The position numbers and the translations under genes were made by a program. The notes beneath the pieces were generated by a model. It had not been told where the DNA came from. It made no database searches and was given only the letters and a program-made list of their open reading frames with translations. Below are positions 332-11,651 of a stretch of DNA of 11,651 bases, one piece after another (position 1 is the stretch's first letter; every line of letters begins with the position of its first letter). The DNA lies in NCBI GenBank assembly GCA_029559475.1, contig JAKQBN010000037.1, forward strand, positions 1 through 11,651, written 5' to 3'. The stretch is from a bacterium (GTDB lineage: Bacteria; UBA4055).

Positions 332-1651
332 TTAAGTGTGTTTTAATGACTGTTTGAATTTCTTTATTTTTTCCGCGAGTAAGACGGTATTTTTCCTGAT
401 ACTTGTTTCATCTATGCATAAAAGAGTTCTGTTCCTCATTAATATCCTGCCGTTGATGATCACAGTATCTACATCTGAGCCTTTCGCAGCATATACAAGA
501 TGGGAGTAGGGATCGTACATCGGGGTCATGTGAAGCGATTTTGTATCTATAATGATCAGATCGGCCTTTTTCCCCGCTTCGACTGAACCCGTTATATCAT
601 CAAGACCAAGTGCTCTTGCGCCGCATATCGTCGCCATTTTTACCACATCTTTAGCAGTTACAGCGGTCGGATCCTTCAGGATACCCTTTTGCAGGATCCC
701 GGCAGTTTTCATTTCCGAGAACATGTCGAGCGTATTGTTGCTGGCCGGACCGTCGGTGCCGAGAGCTACCGTCAGCCCTGCCTTAAGCATATCATTTACC
801 CGGGCGATACCGCTTGCAAGCTTGAGATTGCTCTGCGGACAGTGTACGATCTTGACATTTCTATCCGCAAGTATTTTTATATCATTGTCAGTCAGTACCA
901 CACAGTGGACAGCGACCGTATTTCCGTCAAGGAAACCTATCCTGTCAAGATATTCTACCGGTGTCATTTTATATTTTTTCATGATATGCTCAACTTCGCT
1001 TTCCGTTTCAGAAATGTGAGTGTGAACAAGAACGCCGGTCTTTTTCGAAACTTTCTTAATGTTCTTTAAAAGAGTTTCCGAGCATGAATACGGCGAATGA
1101 GGAACAATGGAAGCAGTAACAAGACTGTTACGGCTGCCGTTCTCTGCGGTCTTTTTCCAGTGATGTTCCGTAATTTTATATACCGGAACAGGAATGTCGA
1201 TGACCGCTTCGCCGAGAACCGCTCTAATGCCGGTTTTTTCCGCCACATCGGCCGTAATATCCGAAAAAAAATACATATCGTTAAATGCCGTTGTGCCTGA
1301 CTTGATCATTTCCGCGGCTGAAAGTTCAGATGCCAGGCGAATATTTTCTTCTGTAACGAATTTTTTTTCTACAGGCCAGATGTGTTCGTTCAGCCATTCA
1401 AAGAGAGCTATATCGTCAGCCATTCCCCTGTAGATCGACATCGGGGAATGCGTGTGTGCGTTTATAAGACCGGGCATTACTATATTCCCGCCGGCATCGA
1501 TCACGGTTTCCGCTTTCACTCCTGACGATGAACCGCGGCCGATGACTTCGATCTTTGATGAGTTTATCCCGATAAAACCCTTTGGAACAATATCACAAGT
1601 CCCGTTCATAGTTATGATAAAGGCGTTTTTAATAAGTATATCGAAATTCAT
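332..1651 (-). CDS. mtaD: MTA/SAH-type deaminase, amidohydrolase family (mtaD-like)
   Basis: A 439-residue metal-dependent amidohydrolase of the length typical for 5-methylthioadenosine/S-adenosylhomocysteine deaminases. These hydrolyse the adenine amino group to give the inosine product plus ammonia, in cytoplasmic salvage of S-adenosylmethionine by-products. The metal and catalytic set is complete: His66 and His68 in 'NAHTH', His212 and Glu215 in 'HTHISETE', His249 in 'AVHC', and Asp300 in 'GTDGPASNN'. Substrate-side residues typical of the subfamily are also present: Glu95 in 'WPVEKKF' and His185 in 'PHSPYSC'. The 'CPQSNLKLASGIA' stretch matches the MtaD group well. The start at 1651 is supported by a GGAG site 8 nt upstream and a promoter at 1681-1709. 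The glutamine synthetase gene follows 23 nt downstream on the same strand. Related deaminases (guanine, s-triazine, other adenosine analogues) share the motifs, so the exact substrate is inferred. Confidence 0.88.
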   Translation of the reverse strand: MNFDILIKNAFIITMNGTCDIVPKGFIGINSSKIEVIGRGSSSGVKAETVIDAGGNIVMPGLINAHTHSPMSIYRGMADDIALFEWLNEHIWPVEKKFVTEENIRLASELSAAEMIKSGTTAFNDMYFFSDITADVAEKTGIRAVLGEAVIDIPVPVYKITEHHWKKTAENGSRNSLVTASIVPHSPYSCSETLLKNIKKVSKKTGVLVHTHISETESEVEHIMKKYKMTPVEYLDRIGFLDGNTVAVHCVVLTDNDIKILADRNVKIVHCPQSNLKLASGIARVNDMLKAGLTVALGTDGPASNNTLDMFSEMKTAGILQKGILKDPTAVTAKDVVKMATICGARALGLDDITGSVEAGKKADLIIIDTKSLHMTPMYDPYSHLVYAAKGSDVDTVIINGRILMRNRTLLCIDETSIRKNTVLLAEKIKKFKQSLKHT

Positions 1652-1680
1652 AAATACCGCTCCGGATCAGTTGGGAGTAA

Positions 1681-1709
1681 ATATTAATGAATAATAAAGT
1701 ATTTTGCAA
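1681..1709 (-). promoter_or_regulatory. Promoter of the mtaD-glnA pair
   Basis: On the minus strand there is TTGCAA (1709-1704), a 17-nt spacer, then TAATAT (1686-1681). Transcription would begin near 1674, giving a leader of about 23 nt before the ATG at 1651, which contains the GGAG ribosome site. It lies back to back with the promoter of the divergent lipoprotein, with only 10 bp between the two -35 elements. Confidence 0.5.
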
Positions 1710-1719
1710 TATTAAATTC

Positions 1720-1748
1720 TTGACATCTTTTAAGCTGTTAAATATATT
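1720..1748 (+). promoter_or_regulatory. Promoter of the small lipoprotein gene
   Basis: TTGACA (1720-1725), a 17-nt spacer, then TATATT (1743-1748): a perfect -35 and a 5/6 -10 of the housekeeping sigma-factor type. The expected transcription start, about 1755, lies after the ATG at 1687 and just before the ATG at 1771. This independently fixes the start of the gene. Confidence 0.65.
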
Positions 1749-1760
1749 TCGAAAAAAAAT

Positions 1761-1766
1761 GGAGAG
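1761..1766 (+). promoter_or_regulatory. Ribosome binding site deciding the lipoprotein start
   Basis: GGAGAG sits 4 nt before the ATG at 1771. No such site precedes the longer ATG at 1687, and from 1771 the protein begins directly with a lipoprotein signal peptide. Confidence 0.65.
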
Positions 1767-1770
1767 CATC

Positions 1771-2262
1771 ATGATAAGGCTGACCGCTATTATACTCATC
1801 GCATGTTTTATGTTCACGTCATGTTCCGCCGAAAAAAATGAAAAAAATAACGAAAAATTTCAAAAAAATGAATCGGAGAATCTAAAAAAAGATTCAGTCA
1901 GTGTTGAAAAGAAAGATTTAACCAGTTCAATTGACAAATACATACCTGAAAACTGGAAAGTTAAAAACATTATAAAGATTCCTGAAAAGAGTCTGGATTA
2001 TTATTCGGGTCTTTTCGGAGGAAAGATCAGAAGTATCGAAAACATTACTTTGTCGACATCAGGTGATTCCTTGTGGTATCAGTTCCAGATAAATGCGATT
2101 GAAGCTGCAGACAAACAGGAAGCATTAAAAATATATAAAAAGATGACCGAACAGTCTACAAATAAAGAGAAGTATGTTCAAAGCGAAAAATATATTTTCG
2201 AATTTGTCGCATCTAATGAAAAAGTCATTTCTAAATGCAAAGAAATATTCAGTAAAAAATAA
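1771..2262 (+). CDS. Small predicted lipoprotein, unknown function
   Basis: 163 residues from the ATG at 1771. The frame is open upstream to an ATG at 1687, but that codon lies ahead of the promoter and would hide the signal peptide. Residues 1-17 form a lipoprotein-type signal (MIRL, then a hydrophobic stretch) ending in a relaxed lipobox, 'FTSC', with Cys18 as the likely lipidated residue. A hydrophilic tether of about 35 residues, rich in Lys, Asn and Glu, follows and is encoded by several A7 runs. The remaining part, from about residue 55 ('YIPENWKVKNIIKIPE'), looks like a small alpha/beta domain with 'LWYQFQINAIEAADKQ' and a Lys-rich C-terminal helix. I do not recognise a family. It is probably anchored in a membrane on the periplasmic or outer face. 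It converges with the beta-propeller lipoprotein gene, with 30 bp between the stop codons and no convincing terminator there. Confidence 0.75.
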   Translation: MIRLTAIILIACFMFTSCSAEKNEKNNEKFQKNESENLKKDSVSVEKKDLTSSIDKYIPENWKVKNIIKIPEKSLDYYSGLFGGKIRSIENITLSTSGDSLWYQFQINAIEAADKQEALKIYKKMTEQSTNKEKYVQSEKYIFEFVASNEKVISKCKEIFSKK

Positions 2263-2292
2263 TGAATTCTCCGAAGTTTGTCTCAGAATGGC

Positions 2293-3417
2293 TTATTCGT
2301 AGCTGTATACTCTTACTGATCTGCCGTCAGCGGATATTACGAACAGGAAGTTCCCTGCAAGTTTAAAAGTTTCATTGCCGGTAACAAAATCCAGCACTGT
2401 TCTATTAATAAATATTCCTTCTGAAAAAATATCAATATAGGTTGAGTCTTTATTGTTTTCGGTCCTGAACACGGTCGGTTTTACCCATAATCTGTTATTT
2501 CTGTCGATCTCGATCGCGCTGACAGGCTTTTTATAATATACCGCGGTCGTATCAATATCATTAAATCCGTATGTTTTATTCATTTCATTAATAACATGCA
2601 TTTCGTAGTTATTATAAGGAACGTCTTTATTGCTTTTCTCGATTACGTATTCTGATATCCCCCTTGCGTTTATAGCATATATTCTATATGCGGATCCCTC
2701 ATTATCCGCGACATAAAAAATATCATTTTTTAAGGCAAAAGAAGTCATAATATCAGGAAAATAAAATTTATCATCAATGTACTTTTTAATATTTTTTATT
2801 ACGGTCTGAGGCTCGAATCTGCGGCTGAGGACATGAAGGTTGTTCGAAAAGTAATAAATTGAATCGGTTCTGTCTTTTCTTTTTTTAGGACAGAAAGCCG
2901 CCATATAATCCCTGCCGTTGGATTTCATGCTTCCGATCTCAGTACCGCCTGCATAGAACTCTTTTGAGAAAAGATACTGCCCGTTGCTAAGATAGTCAAG
3001 CCATTTTCCCTTTCCATATATTATTACGGTATCGCATAAAAGAACGATCTGGCTGGGTGATTTTACATATTTGACGTCATCTCCGCTCTGTTCGGGAAAA
3101 TATCTTTCAAATTCGCCCTTACTGTTATATTTTTTTACAACACCGTGAAGTTCGTCCAGAATATAAATATTGTCCAAGTCGTCGCAAACAAGATCGGCTA
3201 TCCGTCCGAATCCTTTCATCGAGTCCGGAACATTTGCAGGTCCTTTTATTTCAAATAAGAATTTCGTTTCCGGTTTATAAGCGGCTGACGGCTCGCCTGT
3301 ATTTTTATAATGTTTTATGCCGCCGATCGTTTCTATCGTGTAAGTTACAGGCTTATCCGAGCAGTTGTAAATTACGGCTGCCGCTATTAAAAAAAACAGA
3401 ATTTTATAGACATTCAT
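2293..3417 (-). CDS. Predicted lipoprotein, six-bladed beta-propeller (NHL-like)
   Basis: 374 residues. The N-terminus is a signal of 18 residues, hydrophobic from about Ile6 to Tyr17, before Cys19 in 'IYNCSDKP'. This is a lipobox with an unusual Asn at -1, so lipidation is likely but not certain. The body carries propeller-type repeats: 'IADLVCDDLDNIYILDE' followed by 'GVVKKYNSKGEF' (residues 73-103) has the NHL/6-bladed pattern of 'D..GNIYVxD....v.kfd..G'. 'FALKNDIFYVADNEGSAYRI' (227-246) and 'AIEIDRNNRLWVKP' (301-314) repeat it, and strands near 128-150, 186-200 and 345-374 fill the circle. Such lipoproteins are common in Bacteroidota and relatives and usually have unknown ligands; no catalytic residues are evident. 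A GGAG site lies 8 nt before the ATG. It is divergently arranged from the C10 peptidase gene, with 184 bp between the two starts. Confidence 0.75.
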   Translation of the reverse strand: MNVYKILFFLIAAAVIYNCSDKPVTYTIETIGGIKHYKNTGEPSAAYKPETKFLFEIKGPANVPDSMKGFGRIADLVCDDLDNIYILDELHGVVKKYNSKGEFERYFPEQSGDDVKYVKSPSQIVLLCDTVIIYGKGKWLDYLSNGQYLFSKEFYAGGTEIGSMKSNGRDYMAAFCPKKRKDRTDSIYYFSNNLHVLSRRFEPQTVIKNIKKYIDDKFYFPDIMTSFALKNDIFYVADNEGSAYRIYAINARGISEYVIEKSNKDVPYNNYEMHVINEMNKTYGFNDIDTTAVYYKKPVSAIEIDRNNRLWVKPTVFRTENNKDSTYIDIFSEGIFINRTVLDFVTGNETFKLAGNFLFVISADGRSVRVYSYE

Positions 3418-3443
3418 AGGTAAATCTCCAATTAATTGCCGAA

Positions 3444-3472
3444 AATATATATAAATTAATGAAAATAAACAA
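3444..3472 (-). promoter_or_regulatory. Possible promoter of the beta-propeller lipoprotein gene
   Basis: Minus strand TTGTTT (3472-3467), a 17-nt spacer, TATATT (3449-3444). The region is very AT-rich, so chance matches are easy. The position, about 27-55 nt before the ATG, is sensible. Confidence 0.35.
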
Positions 3473-3480
3473 GAAAGATA

Positions 3481-3509
3481 TTGACTTCACAAAATTTATA
3501 GATTATTAT
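3481..3509 (+). promoter_or_regulatory. Promoter of the first C10 peptidase gene
   Basis: TTGACT (3481-3486), a 17-nt spacer, TATTAT (3504-3509). Transcription would start near 3516, giving an untranslated leader of about 86 nt. The leader ends in a full GAGGAGG ribosome site at 3587-3593, 8 nt before the ATG at 3602. An ATG at 3595 lies only 1 nt after that site, is out of frame and is unlikely to be used. Confidence 0.55.
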
Positions 3510-3601
3510 TTAAATGCCAAACTCATAACCATGATCTTTCACAAGAGGAGAAGGACTAAAATATTAATCGGATATAAAAGTATCATGAGGAGGTATGATT
3601 T

Positions 3602-6600
3602 ATGAAGAAACTGATTTCTCTGGTGTTTGTCTTTGCCATAGCGCTTACAGCCGCTTTTGTACCTGCTGACAGGGCAAAAAAAGTCGCTGAAAATCAGTAC
3701 AGGCAGTACTGCGCCGACCAGAGCACTAAAAACGGAGCCGCAGTAAATGTCGTTGAGAACGTTTACGAAGGACAGGTGACCTGGTATGCGTTTGAGTTCG
3801 AAAAAGGATTCGTAATAGTGTCAGCCGACGATGCTGTAAGGCCGATACTGGGATATTCCGATCACGGTAAAGTTCCGAAACCTGACAGAAAAGGGGGCGA
3901 GAACTTTAAAGAGTGGTTCGGGAATTACGATAAACAGATTGCTTTCATGAGAAAAAACGGTTTCGTAGATAAAACAGGACAGAAAGCATGGAAAGACATT
4001 GAAGCCAATGTTTTCACATCATCAAAAGCAGGCGTGATCGTTGACAGACTTCTCAGATCCGAGTGGGATCAGGGATGGCCCTGGAACGATTCCTGCTATG
4101 TTGTCGGCGGAGCGCAGACCCCTGTAGGATGTATCGCAACCGCTATGGCGCAGATATCAAGATACTACAGATGGCCTGTCACAGGAACCGGCAGCAAAAG
4201 GTATAAGCCTTATTCGGGATCGGCATTTATAACCGAATATTTCAGCTCCTGCAATTTCAATTATAATCTGATGCCCGAAATACCGCCGGTCGAGTACGGA
4301 CTTTATCCCGAATACTGGGAATCGGGTATTACGCCTGAAGAAGTCGGGATGCTTGCGCATCATTCATGGATGATGGGTTTTTCGGCAGGTATGATCTATG
4401 CGGCCGACGGCTCATCAGCTACAATGACGGCAGCCTTAACTGCATTGAAGACCAACTGGTATTATACGGGATCCTCATCAGTTACTTCATTTTCCACTCC
4501 TGCTGCGGGCGGAACAGATCTGAGCTATAGTACAATTAAAACACAGCTTGACGCGAAACGTCCGTGGCAGTGGGCCGGAGGAATTCATTCTTTCGTTCTT
4601 GACGGCTACAGAGACGATTACTGGTATCATTTTAACTGGGGCTGGGGCGGAATGTATGACGGATGGTTCCACAGAAGCTCTCTGATACCTGACGGAACCG
4701 GAACGGGCGGCGGAGATGGAGATTATACTGATGGTCAGCAGGGATTTTATGTGATCCCGAATACAGACGTATATGCCGCATGGCCTGCTACAACTGTGAC
4801 CGGTTCGATCGCTAACGGCGAAGATATAACAGTTAACTGGACAGCGAAAACAGGAGCGACCGGTTACGAAGTGTGGAGAACATTCAATAAGACCGATCCG
4901 GTGAAATTAACGACAACTACTTCTTTGAGCTATACCGATAATGATCTTGTAAAAGGTCAGTATGCATATCATGTAGTTGTAAAATATGCTACAGGGGAAT
5001 CGCATATATCCAACTCGTACAGCGCTACAGTTGCAGTTGTCGGAGATTACAGGGTGCCTTCAGCTCTGGATGCCCAGTCTGTTGGCAGAACCAGTATCGA
5101 TCTCACATGGGTAAAGCCATATTGCGGAACAGCCTGGGTAAGCAATGATTTCGAGGCCGGGACTCTCACTCCGTGGGAAAAAAGAAGTTCGGGATTGTTC
5201 ACAGGGACTGTAGGATGGCAGGCTGACGACGGAACAAGATGGGGAATGAACACCGAAAAAGAGTATATCCATGACGGAGATTACTCCGCATTTATTGGAT
5301 ATCCTGCAGGTCAGGGATCTACATATCCGATGAGCTGGCTGTATTCGCCATCCTTCACGGTCGGCGCTTCGCCTTTCCTGAGTCTGTGGACTTGGTATTA
5401 TAACAATCCGCCGCAGAACTGGTATACAGATGTCTGGTTCATTTTTTATAAGGGGAATTTTACTGAAACGACAGGGGCTCAGATACAGGCCAACTGCTCT
5501 ATTCTCGCCTTCTGGGACGGTTCAACCGGACAGGCCAACAACAAATTTGAATCTGAAGTATATTTTGATATGTCCGCTTATACGGGACAGACAGGAAGAA
5601 TAGCTGTAGTATTCAACTATACCGACGGTTATCAGTTCGCAGTTGACGATATTGTCTGCGGAACTAACAACATTTCAATACCTGAACCTACAGGATATCA
5701 GGTTTTCAGGAACGGATCGCTTGCTGCTACTACAGGTGTCACAACATCATGGAGCGACACAGGATTCGCCGACGGCGACAATACTTATTATCTGAGGGCG
5801 GTTTATCCGACAGGAGTTTCAATCTGCACGCCTACGGACGCAGCTTTTATGGACGCCAACCCGAAACCCGATTACCTGTCAGGTACCGGGGGAGCAAGTG
5901 CTCAGTTAAGCTGGTACTATCCTCATCACAACGCGCCTAAATGGTACTGCTGGTACGATCCGGTTAACAGCAATACTACAGTTGACGCTCTCACTGATAC
6001 AGATTGCGCCAGAAGAAGAGTTCTGTTCACATCAGGAATGGGTTATTACTATCCCGCAACTCTCGATACTCTCGCGGCAGGGTTTTACGAATGGTCCGAC
6101 GCGCCGTGGACATCTAACCAGTTCAGATTCAGGGTATGGTGCGAAGGATACGGTGCAATGGATTCACTGTATTATGAATCTCCTCTGCTCACTGCGGTTC
6201 CCGGTCAGGTATATAAATACGCTCTGCCTGCTCCTATAGTAATGACTGAAGCTTTCAACATCGAAGTAGCCGCTTCTGACGCGACCACAGGCCATCCGGC
6301 CAATCTGGCGGGACCTTCAGAGGACGGAGACATACATTCATATTTCTATTATACTGCAGAAAGCTCTTTCTTCTACTATATCACATCGGGCGAAACATCC
6401 CTTGAATATTTCATAATGGGACATCTGACTTCTTCAGCTCCGCCGCCGATTGCCAAATCAGGATGGGTGACCGGGTCGGGATCATCAGCGGAAAAACCGT
6501 TGCGCGAATATAATGAGAACCCGCTGGCCGAAGTAAAAGGCATTCCTTATGAAGTGAAATCATTCAGAACGATCAGCAGCCCTGTAAAAGGAGTCAAGGG

Positions 6601-7054
6601 GATCGATCACTATAACATTTACAGGAACGGTTCCTCGATCGGAACTTCAACTGTTCTCAGCTATAATGATAACAGCGTGCCAGTAACGGGTGATTACACA
6701 TACAAAGTAACCGCTGCCTATACTAGCCCGGCAGGAGAATCTTTACCTTCCAACGAGATCACTCTTAATGTGACTGCAAGCGCACCGGTAATTCCGGGAG
6801 TTCCTTCGGTAACCACTTCGCTTGTAACCGGACAGGTTAAGCTTTCCTGGGGAGCATGCTCTGATGCAACGAGCTACGATATTTATTCATCGCCAACTCC
6901 TTACGGAACATTCGGTTTTCTGACCAACGTAACTGCACTTGAGTACACTTATACCGGAACAGAAACTAAAATGTTCTTCTATGTCGTATCCAAGAACAGT
7001 ACAAAGGCATCGCCGAAAGCGATAACAATATCCAATAAAAAAACCGCCAGATAG
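3602..7054 (+). CDS. Secreted C10-family (streptopain-like) cysteine peptidase with FN3 / anchor-J mosaic C-terminus
   Basis: 1150 residues. Residues 1-18 are a Sec signal peptide. Residues 20-95 match the inhibitory propeptide of C10 peptidases ('ADRAKKVAENQYRQY', then 'WYAFEFEKGFVIVSADDAVR'). The catalytic domain spans about 140-390: Cys177 in 'TPVGCIATAMAQISRYY', His329 in 'GGIHSFVLDGY', and Asn345/Trp346 in 'HFNWGWGG', so the active site looks intact. After it come FN3 #1 (393-478), FN3 #2 (485-745) split by an anchor-J/cleaved-adhesin-like domain (about 508-692), FN3 #3 (about 760-1059) split by a jelly-roll-like module (776-945) plus a charged linker (955-999), and FN3 #4 (1062-1143). 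Streptopain itself is about 400 residues, so most of this protein is accessory binding modules. Unlike the neighbour downstream, it ends without a T9SS sorting domain, so how it crosses the outer membrane is unclear. It probably degrades extracellular protein and, by its modules, binds a surface; the substrate is unknown. Confidence 0.9.
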   Translation: MKKLISLVFVFAIALTAAFVPADRAKKVAENQYRQYCADQSTKNGAAVNVVENVYEGQVTWYAFEFEKGFVIVSADDAVRPILGYSDHGKVPKPDRKGGENFKEWFGNYDKQIAFMRKNGFVDKTGQKAWKDIEANVFTSSKAGVIVDRLLRSEWDQGWPWNDSCYVVGGAQTPVGCIATAMAQISRYYRWPVTGTGSKRYKPYSGSAFITEYFSSCNFNYNLMPEIPPVEYGLYPEYWESGITPEEVGMLAHHSWMMGFSAGMIYAADGSSATMTAALTALKTNWYYTGSSSVTSFSTPAAGGTDLSYSTIKTQLDAKRPWQWAGGIHSFVLDGYRDDYWYHFNWGWGGMYDGWFHRSSLIPDGTGTGGGDGDYTDGQQGFYVIPNTDVYAAWPATTVTGSIANGEDITVNWTAKTGATGYEVWRTFNKTDPVKLTTTTSLSYTDNDLVKGQYAYHVVVKYATGESHISNSYSATVAVVGDYRVPSALDAQSVGRTSIDLTWVKPYCGTAWVSNDFEAGTLTPWEKRSSGLFTGTVGWQADDGTRWGMNTEKEYIHDGDYSAFIGYPAGQGSTYPMSWLYSPSFTVGASPFLSLWTWYYNNPPQNWYTDVWFIFYKGNFTETTGAQIQANCSILAFWDGSTGQANNKFESEVYFDMSAYTGQTGRIAVVFNYTDGYQFAVDDIVCGTNNISIPEPTGYQVFRNGSLAATTGVTTSWSDTGFADGDNTYYLRAVYPTGVSICTPTDAAFMDANPKPDYLSGTGGASAQLSWYYPHHNAPKWYCWYDPVNSNTTVDALTDTDCARRRVLFTSGMGYYYPATLDTLAAGFYEWSDAPWTSNQFRFRVWCEGYGAMDSLYYESPLLTAVPGQVYKYALPAPIVMTEAFNIEVAASDATTGHPANLAGPSEDGDIHSYFYYTAESSFFYYITSGETSLEYFIMGHLTSSAPPPIAKSGWVTGSGSSAEKPLREYNENPLAEVKGIPYEVKSFRTISSPVKGVKGIDHYNIYRNGSSIGTSTVLSYNDNSVPVTGDYTYKVTAAYTSPAGESLPSNEITLNVTASAPVIPGVPSVTTSLVTGQVKLSWGACSDATSYDIYSSPTPYGTFGFLTNVTALEYTYTGTETKMFFYVVSKNSTKASPKAITISNKKTAR

Positions 7055-7074
7055 GATACTGCACCTGATTTTTC

Positions 7075-7106
7075 AAAAAAGCTCCGCGAACAGCGGAGCT
7101 TTTTTT
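7075..7106 (+). terminator. Rho-independent terminator after the first C10 peptidase
   Basis: GCTCCGC (7081-7087) pairs with GCGGAGC (7093-7099) around a 5-nt loop and is followed by T7 (7100-7106). An A6 run just before the stem extends the pairing, so it could also work on the other strand. It starts about 20 nt after the stop codon and shows that the two large genes are separate transcription units. Confidence 0.92.
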
Positions 7107-7107
7107 G

Positions 7108-7136
7108 TTGACATTTTTTCTAACTTTTATTATAAT
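7108..7136 (+). promoter_or_regulatory. Perfect-consensus promoter of the T9SS mosaic protein gene
   Basis: TTGACA (7108-7113), exactly 17 nt, then TATAAT (7131-7136): both hexamers are perfect. The -35 begins one base after the T-tract of the upstream terminator. Transcription would start near 7143, leaving a leader of about 50 nt that includes CGGAGGA (7181-7187), 6 nt before the ATG at 7194. High basal transcription is expected. Confidence 0.8.
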
Positions 7137-7193
7137 TGAAAAGTTGTTTAAGAACACGAAGACTCAATAATAAATAAATTCGGAGGAATTATT

Positions 7194-10100
7194 ATGGTGA
7201 AGAAACTCTTAACGGCAGCGATTATCATTTTTAGTACGTACGCACTCGCGGCTGACTGGTACGGAACGAAAGAAAAGGTTGCCGGACTGAAACAAAAAGA
7301 ATCGGTAAGCAAGGATACTCTCTGGTATACTTATGCTTCCGAACTGGCTTTAGTATGGACGCTAAAAGCCGAAAGAGGGACATATTTCAACGTCAACGAT
7401 TTCGGTCTTGAGTATCCGGTTAACCTGCACGCCGTAACAGCTTATCTTTATGACGACAATTACCAGTACAACTACAGGATCTACGCTAAGAACGGCGTTG
7501 ACATTCTGTATGAAACATCAGCTGATTCGTCAATAAACGGTTACAATGACTATTATTTCGACTCGCCTTTAGTAATGAAGGACGATTTCTGGATCTCAGT
7601 CATTCCTCAGACCTCCGGTTTCCCGAGAATAGTCTCAACGGATGTTACGACAGGCGATAACAGCTACTACAAAAAAGACGGGAACTGGGCGCCGTTCTAT
7701 GAGGAAACAGAAAGATATGAATGGGCGATATTTGCCGGAATGTCTCCCTACGCCGGTGAAGACGTTTATCCCCCTGCATTAAGAGATGTTGCAGGAACAT
7801 CAGTTTTTATTAACACCGATGCAGTTCTTACGTTCATGGTACAGGACCAGACCGATGTTGTCAATCCGTCAGGAGAGTATTCTATAGACGGCGGAACTAC
7901 ATGGACTCCTTTCGCGGTAAATCCCGTGGTAAAAAAAGGTACTTTCAATCTGACAGGCACTTTACCCGGCCAGAATGACGGCGTATCAGCTCTTGTAAGG
8001 ATTTATTTGGAAGACTCCAAAGGCAACAGCGCATGGAGCGACAACTGGGAAGTAAAATGGTCAAGATACGTTCCATTGATTAGCGAGCAGTTCGAAGGCG
8101 CTTTTCCTCCTGAAGGCTGGACTCTCCAGACGGCTACAGGCGCAGGATTCGTACAAGGATTGTTTTCCGCAGGCGATCCGGTTCACTTAGGAGAAGCTTC
8201 TCTAAAACATTTCTACGAAGAAGCCGATCTTGACGACTGGATCTGGACTTACGATTTTGCAATCCCGGCTCAAGGCGCATGCGTACTTTCATTCTGGGAT
8301 ATCGCGAACTATATGGAATACTATGTGCTTCACGAAGTAGTAGTTTCGACAGACGGCGGATCGACTTATACTCAGATATGGAACGGTTCTAACAGCGCGC
8401 ACACTCCGGAAGATATAAACTTAGGAGTATGGGAACAAATAACGCTTTCGCTTAAGCCTTATTCGGGAACAACTGCGCGCATAGGGTTTCACTACATGGG
8501 TAATTATGCGACTGACTGGTATGTTGATGAAGTTTCGGTACTTTATGACGGAGACGCTCCAGCTATAACTAAAGTCATGACAAACGAGTCTCTGTACCCG
8601 AATTTATATGAGTACATTGAGAACGATATGATAGTTAGTATTACTTTTGAAGATCTGGCAGGAGTGGCTGAATGTACAGGTCACTATTCGTTTGACGGCG
8701 GAACAACGGTAAACGATGTTGTTTTCAGTAAAGCGAAAGGAACCGAGATCTGGACGGGAACTGTTCCGACAAGGACAGACGAGACTCCGGGAACTATATA
8801 TTTTACGTACAAAGATATTGGAAACAACAGCGGAACTTCAGGAAATTACGATATAAAATTTATACCTGATGTGAATTCATCTAAAATAGTCAGCTTTAGT
8901 TACGGCGCACCGGTATTCGTTGATAATGATATGACCGTAAAACTGACATTTACTGATGAATCCTCAATAACAGCAGTTTCGGGTCTTTTCAGCGACGACG
9001 GATGGGCGACTTCAAGCGCTTTCGAAATGCTGCCGTCAAAAGACCACACATATATTTACACCGGAGTACTACCTGCAAGAAGCGTAGTTACATTCGCAGA
9101 AGTTAAGTTCCATATCATTGATAAACCGGGTAATGAAATGGATTCTCCGGCCTATTTAGTAAGGTGGCTTAAAGGACAGCAAGTAGTTTTTGATGATTTC
9201 GATGCTAACCATAATCCGGATTTCTGGAACTGGGCTACACCTAACACAGCATGGGAAGTTACTGCTGCAGACAGCCACTCGCCGACTCATTCCCTGACAG
9301 ACAGTCCTGCAGGAAACTATCCGGATAAGACCAAAAACCGTATTATGACAGCACCAATGGATTTTTCAGCTTATCTGGCTGTCGAAGCATATTACTGGAT
9401 CAAATTTGACGTTGAGCCCGGCTGGGAATATGTTATGCTTCAGGGAACAACAAGTGCAGACGCTGTTCCGGACGACTCGCAGTGGACAACTCTAGCGACT
9501 TACGACGGATATCTGGCACCTTGGCAGTACTGCGCAGTGAACCTCGGTTCGTTCGCGCAGCAGAGCAATGTAAGGCTCAGATTTAAACTTGACAGCGACG
9601 CTGCTGTAAATGCCGACGGAGCATATATAGATGATTTCAGGATCATCGGTTATGAGGAAGATTATGCAGCTCCTCTGATCAAATATGACGGCCCGGCAAT
9701 TATAACAGGCGCTGATTATACTATTCCGAGAGAGTTCACTCTTCCTGTCGGAATGGGAGACTACAAATTCAACGTTGAACTTGATGATCTTTCAGGAATA
9801 TCCTTAGTCAAAGCAGTTTATTCTGTCGACGGCGGAGCAGAGCAGGAATTCATCCCGGCAGTATCATCAGGAGCATCAGGGGTTTACGAAGTGGTAATAC
9901 CTGAGCAGGCCGCAGGTTCGTATGTTGAATATAAAGTCGTAACAAAAGACAATTCAAAATACTTTAACGCTGGTGAAACAAAAATCTACAAGATCCACTT
10001 CGGTAATTATCTGTATTATCAGAACAACGATGATTATGTAGATTATCTTGACATCATCGGTACTTCAGCTCAGTCAAGTGCTCAGGCTGTAGCGGTCAGA

Positions 10101-11126
10101 GCAACAATGGGACCGATGGAGTCGGGAAAAGGCCATTACAGGTCAAACCTTGTCGGCATCACGATTGACAACTACATCGCTACAGACAACGGATATCCGA
10201 GCGACCCGATGTACGTTCATGTATGGGAAAGCGTAGGCGGCTTACCAGGCCAAGACATCATGAAACCTATTTATGTTGTTCCGGCCTGCACGGACGATTC
10301 GAACTACGAGATCACTTATGTTGATCTGAGGCCATATGCCGACAAGCTTTCTGGAATTGAAGGAGACGTATTTGTAGGCTACACTACTGCAGGCGACCAG
10401 ACACTCCTTCTTTACGAAACTAACGACGGCACCCCTGCCGGAATGGTAAAATTCGAAAGATCATGGCTCGGACTGGATAACGAAGGCGTTCTTTCATGGT
10501 CACTTGCTACAGGAACTAATTATCACATCAGTGCAGTTATAGACCATTACGAATACGTTGACGCGCCTGTTTATCCTACAGGTTTTACTGCGGCAGTAGA
10601 ACCCGATGTAGGTGTCCGTCTGGCATGGACAGGAAACGTAAAAGCCGGCATTGATCACTACAATGTGTACAGAGACATAGTTCCAAGCTTCCCGATCGGA
10701 GCTCCGCTCGCAAACGTAGCAATTCCGGCAGCCGAGTACCTGGATACTGTAGTTGACGGTACTTATTATTATAAGGTAACTGCTGTCGATTCTCTCGGAA
10801 ACGAAAGTACTCCTTCAGCAGAACTCGAAGTTGTTGTTTCAGGACTGAACGAGAACATACCTCTGGTAACCGAACTTTATCAGAACTACCCGAACCCGTT
10901 CAACCCGGAAACTTCGATAAAATTCACTTTGGCGGCCAACTCAAAAGTAAGTCTTTCGGTTTACAACACGAAAGGCGAAAAGGTTATGGCGCTTCTTGAC
11001 GGGAACATGAAAGCCGGTTACTACAACACCAGCTTTAACGGTTCGAAACTCGTCAGCGGAGTATATTACTACACTCTGAAAGTTGACGGCAAAGCGATGA
11101 CCAAAAAGATGATGCTTATCAAATAG
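7194..11126 (+). CDS. Large T9SS-secreted mosaic protein (Ig-like, anchor-J, FN3 modules; no enzyme domain seen)
   Basis: 1310 residues. A signal peptide ends near Ala20 ('TYALAADW'). Modules in order: a jelly-roll-like domain (about 22-185); Ig-like 1 (188-290) with the Asp-box-like 'YSIDGGTTW'; anchor-J/MAM-like 1 (293-452, ending 'DWYVDEVSVL'); Ig-like 2 (453-556, 'YSFDGGTT'); Ig-like 3 (557-660, 'FSDDGW'); anchor-J 2 (661-820, ending 'AYIDDFRIIGY'); Ig-like 4 (823-935, 'YSVDGGAEQ'); a second jelly-roll-like module (936-1118); FN3 (1122-1216, 'GIDHYNVYR'). The T9SS type A C-terminal domain (1225-1310) has 'LYQNYPNPFNPETSIKF', 'VSLSVYNTKGEKV' and 'GVYYYTLKVDGK'. The C-terminal domain is the export and surface-attachment signal of the type IX system. 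No catalytic motif was recognised, so an adhesin or matrix/scaffold role is the likeliest inference. It shares modules with the C10 peptidase upstream, suggesting a common extracellular job. Its own promoter and terminator make it monocistronic. Confidence 0.9.
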   Translation: MVKKLLTAAIIIFSTYALAADWYGTKEKVAGLKQKESVSKDTLWYTYASELALVWTLKAERGTYFNVNDFGLEYPVNLHAVTAYLYDDNYQYNYRIYAKNGVDILYETSADSSINGYNDYYFDSPLVMKDDFWISVIPQTSGFPRIVSTDVTTGDNSYYKKDGNWAPFYEETERYEWAIFAGMSPYAGEDVYPPALRDVAGTSVFINTDAVLTFMVQDQTDVVNPSGEYSIDGGTTWTPFAVNPVVKKGTFNLTGTLPGQNDGVSALVRIYLEDSKGNSAWSDNWEVKWSRYVPLISEQFEGAFPPEGWTLQTATGAGFVQGLFSAGDPVHLGEASLKHFYEEADLDDWIWTYDFAIPAQGACVLSFWDIANYMEYYVLHEVVVSTDGGSTYTQIWNGSNSAHTPEDINLGVWEQITLSLKPYSGTTARIGFHYMGNYATDWYVDEVSVLYDGDAPAITKVMTNESLYPNLYEYIENDMIVSITFEDLAGVAECTGHYSFDGGTTVNDVVFSKAKGTEIWTGTVPTRTDETPGTIYFTYKDIGNNSGTSGNYDIKFIPDVNSSKIVSFSYGAPVFVDNDMTVKLTFTDESSITAVSGLFSDDGWATSSAFEMLPSKDHTYIYTGVLPARSVVTFAEVKFHIIDKPGNEMDSPAYLVRWLKGQQVVFDDFDANHNPDFWNWATPNTAWEVTAADSHSPTHSLTDSPAGNYPDKTKNRIMTAPMDFSAYLAVEAYYWIKFDVEPGWEYVMLQGTTSADAVPDDSQWTTLATYDGYLAPWQYCAVNLGSFAQQSNVRLRFKLDSDAAVNADGAYIDDFRIIGYEEDYAAPLIKYDGPAIITGADYTIPREFTLPVGMGDYKFNVELDDLSGISLVKAVYSVDGGAEQEFIPAVSSGASGVYEVVIPEQAAGSYVEYKVVTKDNSKYFNAGETKIYKIHFGNYLYYQNNDDYVDYLDIIGTSAQSSAQAVAVRATMGPMESGKGHYRSNLVGITIDNYIATDNGYPSDPMYVHVWESVGGLPGQDIMKPIYVVPACTDDSNYEITYVDLRPYADKLSGIEGDVFVGYTTAGDQTLLLYETNDGTPAGMVKFERSWLGLDNEGVLSWSLATGTNYHISAVIDHYEYVDAPVYPTGFTAAVEPDVGVRLAWTGNVKAGIDHYNVYRDIVPSFPIGAPLANVAIPAAEYLDTVVDGTYYYKVTAVDSLGNESTPSAELEVVVSGLNENIPLVTELYQNYPNPFNPETSIKFTLAANSKVSLSVYNTKGEKVMALLDGNMKAGYYNTSFNGSKLVSGVYYYTLKVDGKAMTKKMMLIK

Positions 11127-11148
11127 TATTAAACGTACTGTAAAGCAG

Positions 11149-11177
11149 AAAAGGGGAAAGAATTTTTCCCCTTTTTT
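11149..11177 (+). terminator. Rho-independent terminator after the T9SS mosaic protein
   Basis: AAAAGGGGAAA (11149-11159) pairs with TTTCCCCTTTT (11165-11175) across a 5-nt loop, and the T-run continues to 11177. It lies 22 nt after the stop codon. The A/T flanks make it potentially bidirectional. Confidence 0.88.
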
Positions 11178-11184
11178 GTTTTAA

Positions 11185-11200
11185 TGTGATATTTGTCACT
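11185..11200. promoter_or_regulatory. CRP/FNR-like inverted repeat upstream of the second C10 peptidase
   Basis: TGTGA (11185-11189), 6 nt, TCACT (11196-11200) matches the TGTGA-N6-TCACA form recognised by CRP-family regulators at 9 of 10 half-site bases. Its centre is about 123 bp before the predicted transcription start at 11316. That is further upstream than the usual activating positions, so its role is uncertain. Confidence 0.35.
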
Positions 11201-11210
11201 GCATTTTTAA

Positions 11211-11226
11211 TAATAATACATTATTA
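11211..11226. repeat. Short AT palindrome in the intergenic region
   Basis: TAATAAT (11211-11217) and ATTATTA (11220-11226) form 7-bp arms with a 2-nt centre, between the terminator and the promoter of the second peptidase. It could be an operator or simply chance in AT-rich DNA. Confidence 0.3.
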
Positions 11227-11279
11227 ATATAGTGTAAAAAATCAGGGGGCATTGAATGATAATTGCGGAAATTTTTTAC

Positions 11280-11309
11280 TTGACAAAAACATCAAAATGT
11301 GTTTATATT
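11280..11309 (+). promoter_or_regulatory. Promoter of the second C10 peptidase gene
   Basis: TTGACA (11280-11285), an 18-nt spacer, TATATT (11304-11309). With TTATAT as the -10 the spacer is 17. A start near 11316 gives a leader of about 112 nt with a G-rich purine run (11334-11344) and a GAGGAGG ribosome site at 11417-11423, 4 nt before the ATG. No known riboswitch fold was recognised in this leader. Confidence 0.55.
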
Positions 11310-11427
11310 ACTTGCCGGTACTAATTTTAAACTGGAGGGGGGAGTTAACGGATAAGTTTTCAGCAAAGTTTAGAAACGTAATTTAGAATCAGTTAGGAAA
11401 CCAATAAAAACACTCAGAGGAGGAACA

Positions 11428-11651
11428 ATGAGAAAAATGATGATGCTAATAATAGTTTTAGCAGCTATGCTTTCAGCCGCGATCGTTCCGGTTGACAGAG
11501 CTAAGAAAGTTGCGGAAAACTATTATCAGTTCTACGCGCCTTCCGATGCGAAAGGCAATGTGATCGAAAAAGTGCTGACCAAAGAATATCTGGGCCAGCC
11601 GACATGGTATGTCGTAAAATTCACAAAAGGCTGGGTAATCGTAGCAGCCGA
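11428..11651 (+). CDS. Second C10-family peptidase, signal peptide and propeptide only (cut by right window edge)
   Basis: 74 complete codons from the ATG at 11428 to the window edge. Residues 1-18 form a signal peptide ('MRKMMMLIIVLAAMLSAA'). 'VPVDRAKKVAENYYQFY' then lines up with 'VPADRAKKVAENQYRQY' of the peptidase starting at 3602. The following 'YLGQPTWYVVKFTKGWVIVAA' lines up with 'YEGQVTWYAFEFEKGFVIVSA', the core of the C10 inhibitory propeptide. It is clearly a paralogue of the first peptidase, with about half of these residues identical. The catalytic domain is outside the window, so activity and C-terminal modules cannot be judged. The same order of promoter, long leader and strong ribosome site precedes both paralogues. 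Confidence 0.87.
   Translation, partial: MRKMMMLIIVLAAMLSAAIVPVDRAKKVAENYYQFYAPSDAKGNVIEKVLTKEYLGQPTWYVVKFTKGWVIVAA

Follow-up and report, generated by a model that had tools for sequence, protein, structure and literature searches.

A conserved cluster of C10 peptidases and a mosaic surface protein in Candidatus Delongbacteria, with a candidate C-terminal sorting domain of fibronectin type III fold

Signals of the type IX secretion system (T9SS) are known as types A, B and C (PMC10202324). Types A and B each have their own shuttle proteins and direct cargo to separate destinations (PMC12618676), and type A C-terminal domains (CTDs) are Ig-like, with a conserved C-terminal motif and a lysine (PMC11285876). 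The window analysed here is the complete 11,651 bp contig JAKQBN010000037.1 (C72) of an assembly of 2.28 Mb in 83 contigs, 92% complete, and its host family is Candidatus Delongbacteria. Three genes lie in tandem on the plus strand, encoding a C10 peptidase (P1), a mosaic protein (M) and the start of a second C10-type protein (P2). The locus is a real, conserved and separately transcribed cluster of predicted extracellular proteins whose component kinds are already known, and the actual division within it is between two kinds of C-terminal tail. Our reading, to which we give a probability of roughly 0.6, is that C10 peptidases flank a non-enzymatic T9SS surface protein in a conserved Delongbacteria cluster and that the tail of P1, a fibronectin type III (FN3) fold module, is a lineage-specific sorting or anchoring domain.

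The relatives of P1 in the PDB are the streptopain zymogen and interpain A. P1 resembles these C10 enzymes in its catalytic domain, its Cys, His and NWGW motifs and its I69 propeptide, but differs in having about 770 extra C-terminal residues (FN3, anchor-J, jelly-roll-like and terminal FN3 modules) and in belonging to a tandem cluster with a T9SS mosaic protein. Gingipains (RgpA/Kgp of Porphyromonas gingivalis) are likewise cysteine peptidases of secreted type that bear adhesin-type modules and belong to a T9SS organism. However, P1 is a C10 and not a C25 peptidase, and here the modules are found on both the peptidase and its neighbour. The type A CTD (TIGR04183 / PF18962) is present in M, where it is C-terminal and Ig-like and has a basic last residue; the terminal module of P1 has the same position, a basic end and mutual exclusivity with that tail, but no detectable sequence relation to it. 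Types B and C demonstrate that alternative CTD classes exist, although P1 has no match to the type B models PF13585 / TIGR04131. The coding features of the cluster are as follows.

3602..7054, plus strand: P1, secreted-type C10 cysteine peptidase, 1150 amino acids (aa), with an N-terminal signal peptide and no T9SS tail
3653..3940, plus strand: P1 I69 inhibitor/propeptide domain, residues 18-113 (E=6e-15)
4064..4669, plus strand: P1 Peptidase_C10 catalytic domain, with VGCIATAMAQ (Cys), GGIHSFVLDGY (His) and YHFNWGW
5135..5701, plus strand: P1 anchor-J-like module, residues 512-700, homologous to M 292-452
5894..6481, plus strand: P1 jelly-roll-like module, residues 765-960, homologous to M 20-195
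6569..6805, plus strand: P1 'GIDHYN' FN3 module, residues 990-1068
6806..7051, plus strand: P1 terminal FN3-fold module, candidate C-terminal sorting/anchoring domain
7194..11126, plus strand: M, mosaic T9SS type A cargo, 1310 aa, no enzymatic domain detected
7251..7778, plus strand: M N-terminal jelly-roll-like module, residues 20-195 (profile alignment; low-confidence beta-rich model)
8079..8540, plus strand: M choice-of-anchor J domain 1, residues 296-449 (E=1.5e-13)
9171..9671, plus strand: M second anchor-J-like domain, residues 660-826 (profile alignment; the G011 orthologue gives an InhA-like MAM match)
10536..10853, plus strand: M 'GIDHYN' FN3 module (in the G011 orthologue; absent in G002, G003 and G005)
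10887..11114, plus strand: M T9SS type A sorting tail, residues 1232-1307
11428..11651, plus strand: P2, C10-type gene start (signal peptide and part of the I69 propeptide), cut by the contig end

In P1, the signal peptide is followed by I69, C10, FN3, anchor-J-like, FN3, jelly-roll-like, FN3 and terminal FN3 domains. The Pfam matches are above their cut-offs for both Peptidase_C10 (E=6e-38, 131 bits against 26) and the I69 propeptide (55.9 bits against 25), and the catalytic Cys, His and NWGW motifs are intact. The Pfam scan gave no PF01364 (Peptidase_C25) match, which places P1 outside the gingipain family. At E<=1, neither a type A tail (PF18962, TIGR04183) nor a type B tail (PF13585 / TIGR04131) was found in P1, a point missed in the original prediction; no NCBIfam family of any kind matched P1 at that threshold.

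M carries the choice-of-anchor J domain (E=2e-13) and Ig-like modules beside its jelly-roll-like, two anchor-J-like and FN3 modules and its T9SS tail. This tail, claimed from the sequence earlier, exceeds both cut-offs and lies at the C-terminus (TIGR04183 / PF18962; E=3e-9 / 1.5e-8, 34.5 bits against 23 and 37.3 bits against 27). P1 and M were also said to have three module types in common, and profile-profile alignments agree, pairing the jelly-roll-like modules (P1 765-960 with M 20-195; probability 98%, E 3e-14), the anchor-J domains (P1 512-700 with M 292-452; 97%, 9e-12) and the 'GIDHYN' FN3 modules (P1 990-1068 with M 1115-1220; 94%, 47% identity). The model of the N-terminal module of M (pLDDT 59) gave weak structural matches only, many of them to carbohydrate-binding modules, so the label 'jelly-roll-like' stays unproven. 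On another contig of the same genome (C79, L091, 4143-15342), four T9SS type A proteins lie in tandem on one strand without peptidases; two of them are full-length mosaic paralogues (35%).

The terminal module of P1 is about 78 aa long and has an FN3 fold (predicted model, pLDDT 72.5). Its best structural matches are FN3 domains, with Z of about 10, and 3mpc was matched by sequence as well (E=1.3e-7). The profile of the module hit 28 places in the genome carrying the locus, and every inspected copy was at the C-terminus of an open reading frame (ORF). Eleven of the 13 genomes of the family hold 10-65 copies each; outside the family, matches were found in 4 of 48 genomes, with one to three in each. 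For 77 confident family copies at the loci examined, 0-40 aa (median about 4) remain between the module and the stop codon. Across about 85 confident family copies looked at in total, the position was C-terminal without exception. This position is not a property of FN3 modules in general, a possibility that was rejected: the 'GIDHYN' type, used as a control (A3), has 10 copies in the genome and none of them is C-terminal, and four of the five loci outside the family hold internal copies of the terminal module itself.

The carriers are diverse and include C10 and two C25 peptidases as well as FG-GAP, LamG and beta-helix proteins. A hydrophobic N-terminus was found in 26 of 28 complete ORFs carrying the module, against a background of 210/311 at the same loci. 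The C25 members of the genome lie on contigs C39 and C47 and have the terminal FN3 module instead of a type A CTD; the two peptidases ending in this manner are encoded at L255 (884-6586, minus strand) and L247 (665-2998, plus strand).

Of the ORFs examined, 91 have the terminal module and 67 have the T9SS type A tail, with no ORF having both. K or R is the final residue in 75% of the first group, 98% of the second and 28% of other ORFs; these figures are descriptive, as related copies are not independent. Homologous proteins exchange the two tails. One tail swap separates the neighbouring proteins of contig C29 (60% identity over 682 aa), a second P1 with its relatives and the C29 peptidase (35% over 1118 aa for P1), and a third an M-like protein of L094, which has the terminal module, and its homologue in L012 (49% over 754 aa). 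Contig C29 (L005), with a second C10 locus, presents the reverse of the window: the peptidase (723-4232) has the T9SS type A tail, and the non-peptidase (4246-6609), 60% identical to the C-terminal half of the neighbouring peptidase, has the terminal FN3 module as its tail. Beyond it, a 76-aa ORF (6618-6848) consists of one more, solitary copy of the module. The module was also considered as a cryptic type A tail, which was rejected as the profile alignment gave no match. A contig search across genomes returned mostly T9SS tails of other phyla.

The genome encodes SprA (638 bits with neighbours) and PorU (532 bits), both over their cut-offs. This genome (G000) also has PorV-like genes on contigs C47, C57, C58 and C80, four in all, of which one is a strong match and the other three are weak; they are candidate shuttles for different cargo classes. 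The terminal module is read as a sorting or anchoring domain by analogy with type A CTDs and with the shuttle-specific CTD classes. It may even represent an undescribed class of C-terminal sorting domain that evolved in Delongbacteria from an ordinary FN3 and replaces the type A tail, with swaps redirecting homologues, a proposal that we put forward tentatively and with somewhat less than even confidence.

The same observations bear on a different explanation, according to which the terminal FN3 is no more than an accessory binder of carbohydrate or matrix, or of protein in dockerin-like fashion, that happens to stand last, P1 crosses the outer membrane by another route and M is perhaps its surface partner. 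The closest FN3 domains do include those of glycan-active enzymes (3mpc, 5g56), P1 and M have modules in common, and in Cloacimonadota C25 peptidases and other enzymes bear dockerins at the C-terminus, for which a scaffoldin is the partner (PMC8542988). However, a plain binding module would be expected at internal positions too, and the confident family copies are never internal; nor does the module occur together with the T9SS type A tail across very diverse proteins, and both tail classes show an excess of basic final residues. We consider this explanation rather unlikely.

The linkage of the genes was compared in relatives. In G011 (contig C159) and G002 (contig C22), an amidohydrolase gene on the opposite strand is followed by C10, mosaic and C10 genes. 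As in the window, a glutamine-synthetase-like gene lies further to the left; the first C10 gene of G002 C22 is interrupted by an unresolved assembly stretch. Fragments in three other genomes fit this order: mosaic then C10 in G009 (C216); C10-mosaic (C208), mosaic-C10-C10 start (C122) and amidohydrolase-C10-C10 (C12) in G010; and, in G007, amidohydrolase-C10-C10 up to the end of contig C14, with contig C35 opening with a mosaic orthologue. G005 (C5) and G012 (C33) have the same flank and then a C10 start. The relatives did not have the genes unlinked, nor was the sequence to the right unrelated, and the longer array foreseen in the original prediction is seen in G011, G002, G009 and G010, where a C10 gene follows the mosaic gene. 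Mosaic paralogues at other sites have no C10 neighbour (G003 C219, G005 C27 and C79 of the same genome), and G001, of the same genus, gave no C10 match. In two relatives (L075, 18201-19090; L089, 1-865), the last C10 gene is followed by a conserved gene of secreted type, which has internal repeats of the TTAGTDQNLVALPV type and is possibly the next gene to the right of the window; its G011 copy has no Pfam or NCBIfam match.

Conserved adjacency and common modules could also suggest a gingipain-like division of labour, in which M provides adhesion and the neighbouring peptidases catalysis, as had been proposed for this locus. This is improbable: since P1 and its homologue on C29 bear the same adhesin-type modules themselves, the split between genes is unsupported. 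Each gene has its own promoter and terminator, and the M homologues without C10 neighbours and the genome without a C10 match also argue against it. Finally, a type II secretion signal like the Fn3 loops of the pectate lyases PelI and Pel3 is very improbable, for although their Fn3 domains are among the top structural matches (Z 9.0-9.8, VIA-align) and Fn3 loop 3 was shown to be such a signal (PMC7949064), many other FN3 domains score equally, and the FN3 fold linked to secretion is N-terminal and part of a composite signal there but strictly C-terminal here.

Several points weigh against the sorting or anchoring domain and the cluster as we read them. The fold of the terminal module and its nearest sequences are those of ordinary FN3, and the profile alignment did not relate the module by sequence to the T9SS type A tail. 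C-terminal copies served to build the profile, which does have internal matches within the family, all weak (E 1e-6 to 4e-5), namely the first FN3 modules of three P1-type peptidases and one in L102. Two genomes (G004, G006) have SprA and no copy of the module, which means that the module does not track the T9SS. The PorV-like protein of the genome (212 bits) falls below its curated cut-off. The catalytic domain of P2 lies outside the window, and its presence is predicted from relatives.

Of the two paralogous C10 peptidases originally predicted, P1 is established by its profile match and P2 is seen only as part of a propeptide. P2 starts with the ATG at 11428 and runs for 74 aa up to the contig end; its I69 match (E=0.0026) is below the cut-off, and it is 49% identical to P1 over 75 aa. 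The remainder of P2 is not on any other contig of the assembly, where C10 matches occur on four contigs only. The end of contig C39, a partial ORF with the terminal module, was considered as its continuation and rejected, as the sequence gives no ground for joining the two. In a tree of the N-terminal ~380 residues of C10 peptidases, which leaves out P2 as too short, the P1-type clade stands apart from the others. The propeptide of P2 is closest to those of G009_C216 (77%), G003_C109 (64%) and G002_C114 (63%), all outside the P1 clade, and a recent duplication giving P1 and P2 was rejected. The G009_C216 peptidase sits 3' of the mosaic orthologue of that genome. The window seems to pair two different kinds of C10 peptidase around M, and G011 and G002 to pair two of the P1 kind.

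The three best plus-strand promoter matches of the region, at 3481, 7108 and 11280, fall one before each gene, which bears out the earlier view of a tandem on one strand with separate promoters. Strong terminators lie 3' of P1 and of M; that of P1, though missing from the scan list, can be read directly from the sequence and has a folding energy of -20.3 kcal/mol. These elements and the left flank are listed below.

3481..3509, plus strand: P1 promoter, sigma-70-like, TTGACT-17-TATTAT (10/12)
7075..7106, plus strand: intrinsic terminator after P1 (dG -20.3, z -5.2)
7108..7136, plus strand: M promoter, perfect consensus TTGACA-17-TATAAT (12/12)
11142..11182, plus strand: intrinsic terminator after M (dG -22.3, z -5.6)
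11280..11309, plus strand: P2 promoter, TTGACA-18-TATATT (11/12)
332..1651, minus strand: conserved amidohydrolase (TRZ/ATZ family) of the left flank, found at the same site in relatives
3-308: glutamine-synthetase-like ORF of the left flank, which together with the amidohydrolase marks the same site in relatives

Two further ORFs separate the amidohydrolase from P1, one lipoprotein-like (1687-2262) and one of 374 aa (2293-3417, minus strand) whose N-terminus is lipoprotein-like; in G011 and G002, the locus lacks both.

From the protein families involved, we infer how the products may be secreted and act. P1 and P2 would be made as inactive zymogens with a signal peptide and an I69 inhibitory propeptide, leave by Sec, fold as zymogens, cross the outer membrane and mature outside, where their presumed enzymatic activity would digest extracellular protein for nutrition. 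M would be exported by the type IX system, with the type A tail as its signal, and would remain at the cell surface in an adhesive or scaffolding role; any cooperation between M and P1 is putative. In place of a type A tail, P1 would use the 78-aa FN3-fold module, most simply as a further class of T9SS signal.

A literature search conducted largely without subscription papers found no description of an FN3-type C-terminal sorting signal or of Delongbacteria peptidases. A conserved cluster of C10 and T9SS mosaic genes is a modest addition to what is known of an uncultured phylum, and the terminal module is of greater importance. In the scanned proteins, no Pfam or NCBIfam model marked it as a sorting signal; for this reason, if the proposed role is true, a hidden secretome would have been overlooked by current family models. 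The 10-65 proteins per genome, C25 peptidases included, would then be labelled by a recruited FN3 domain, which would show how such labels arise.

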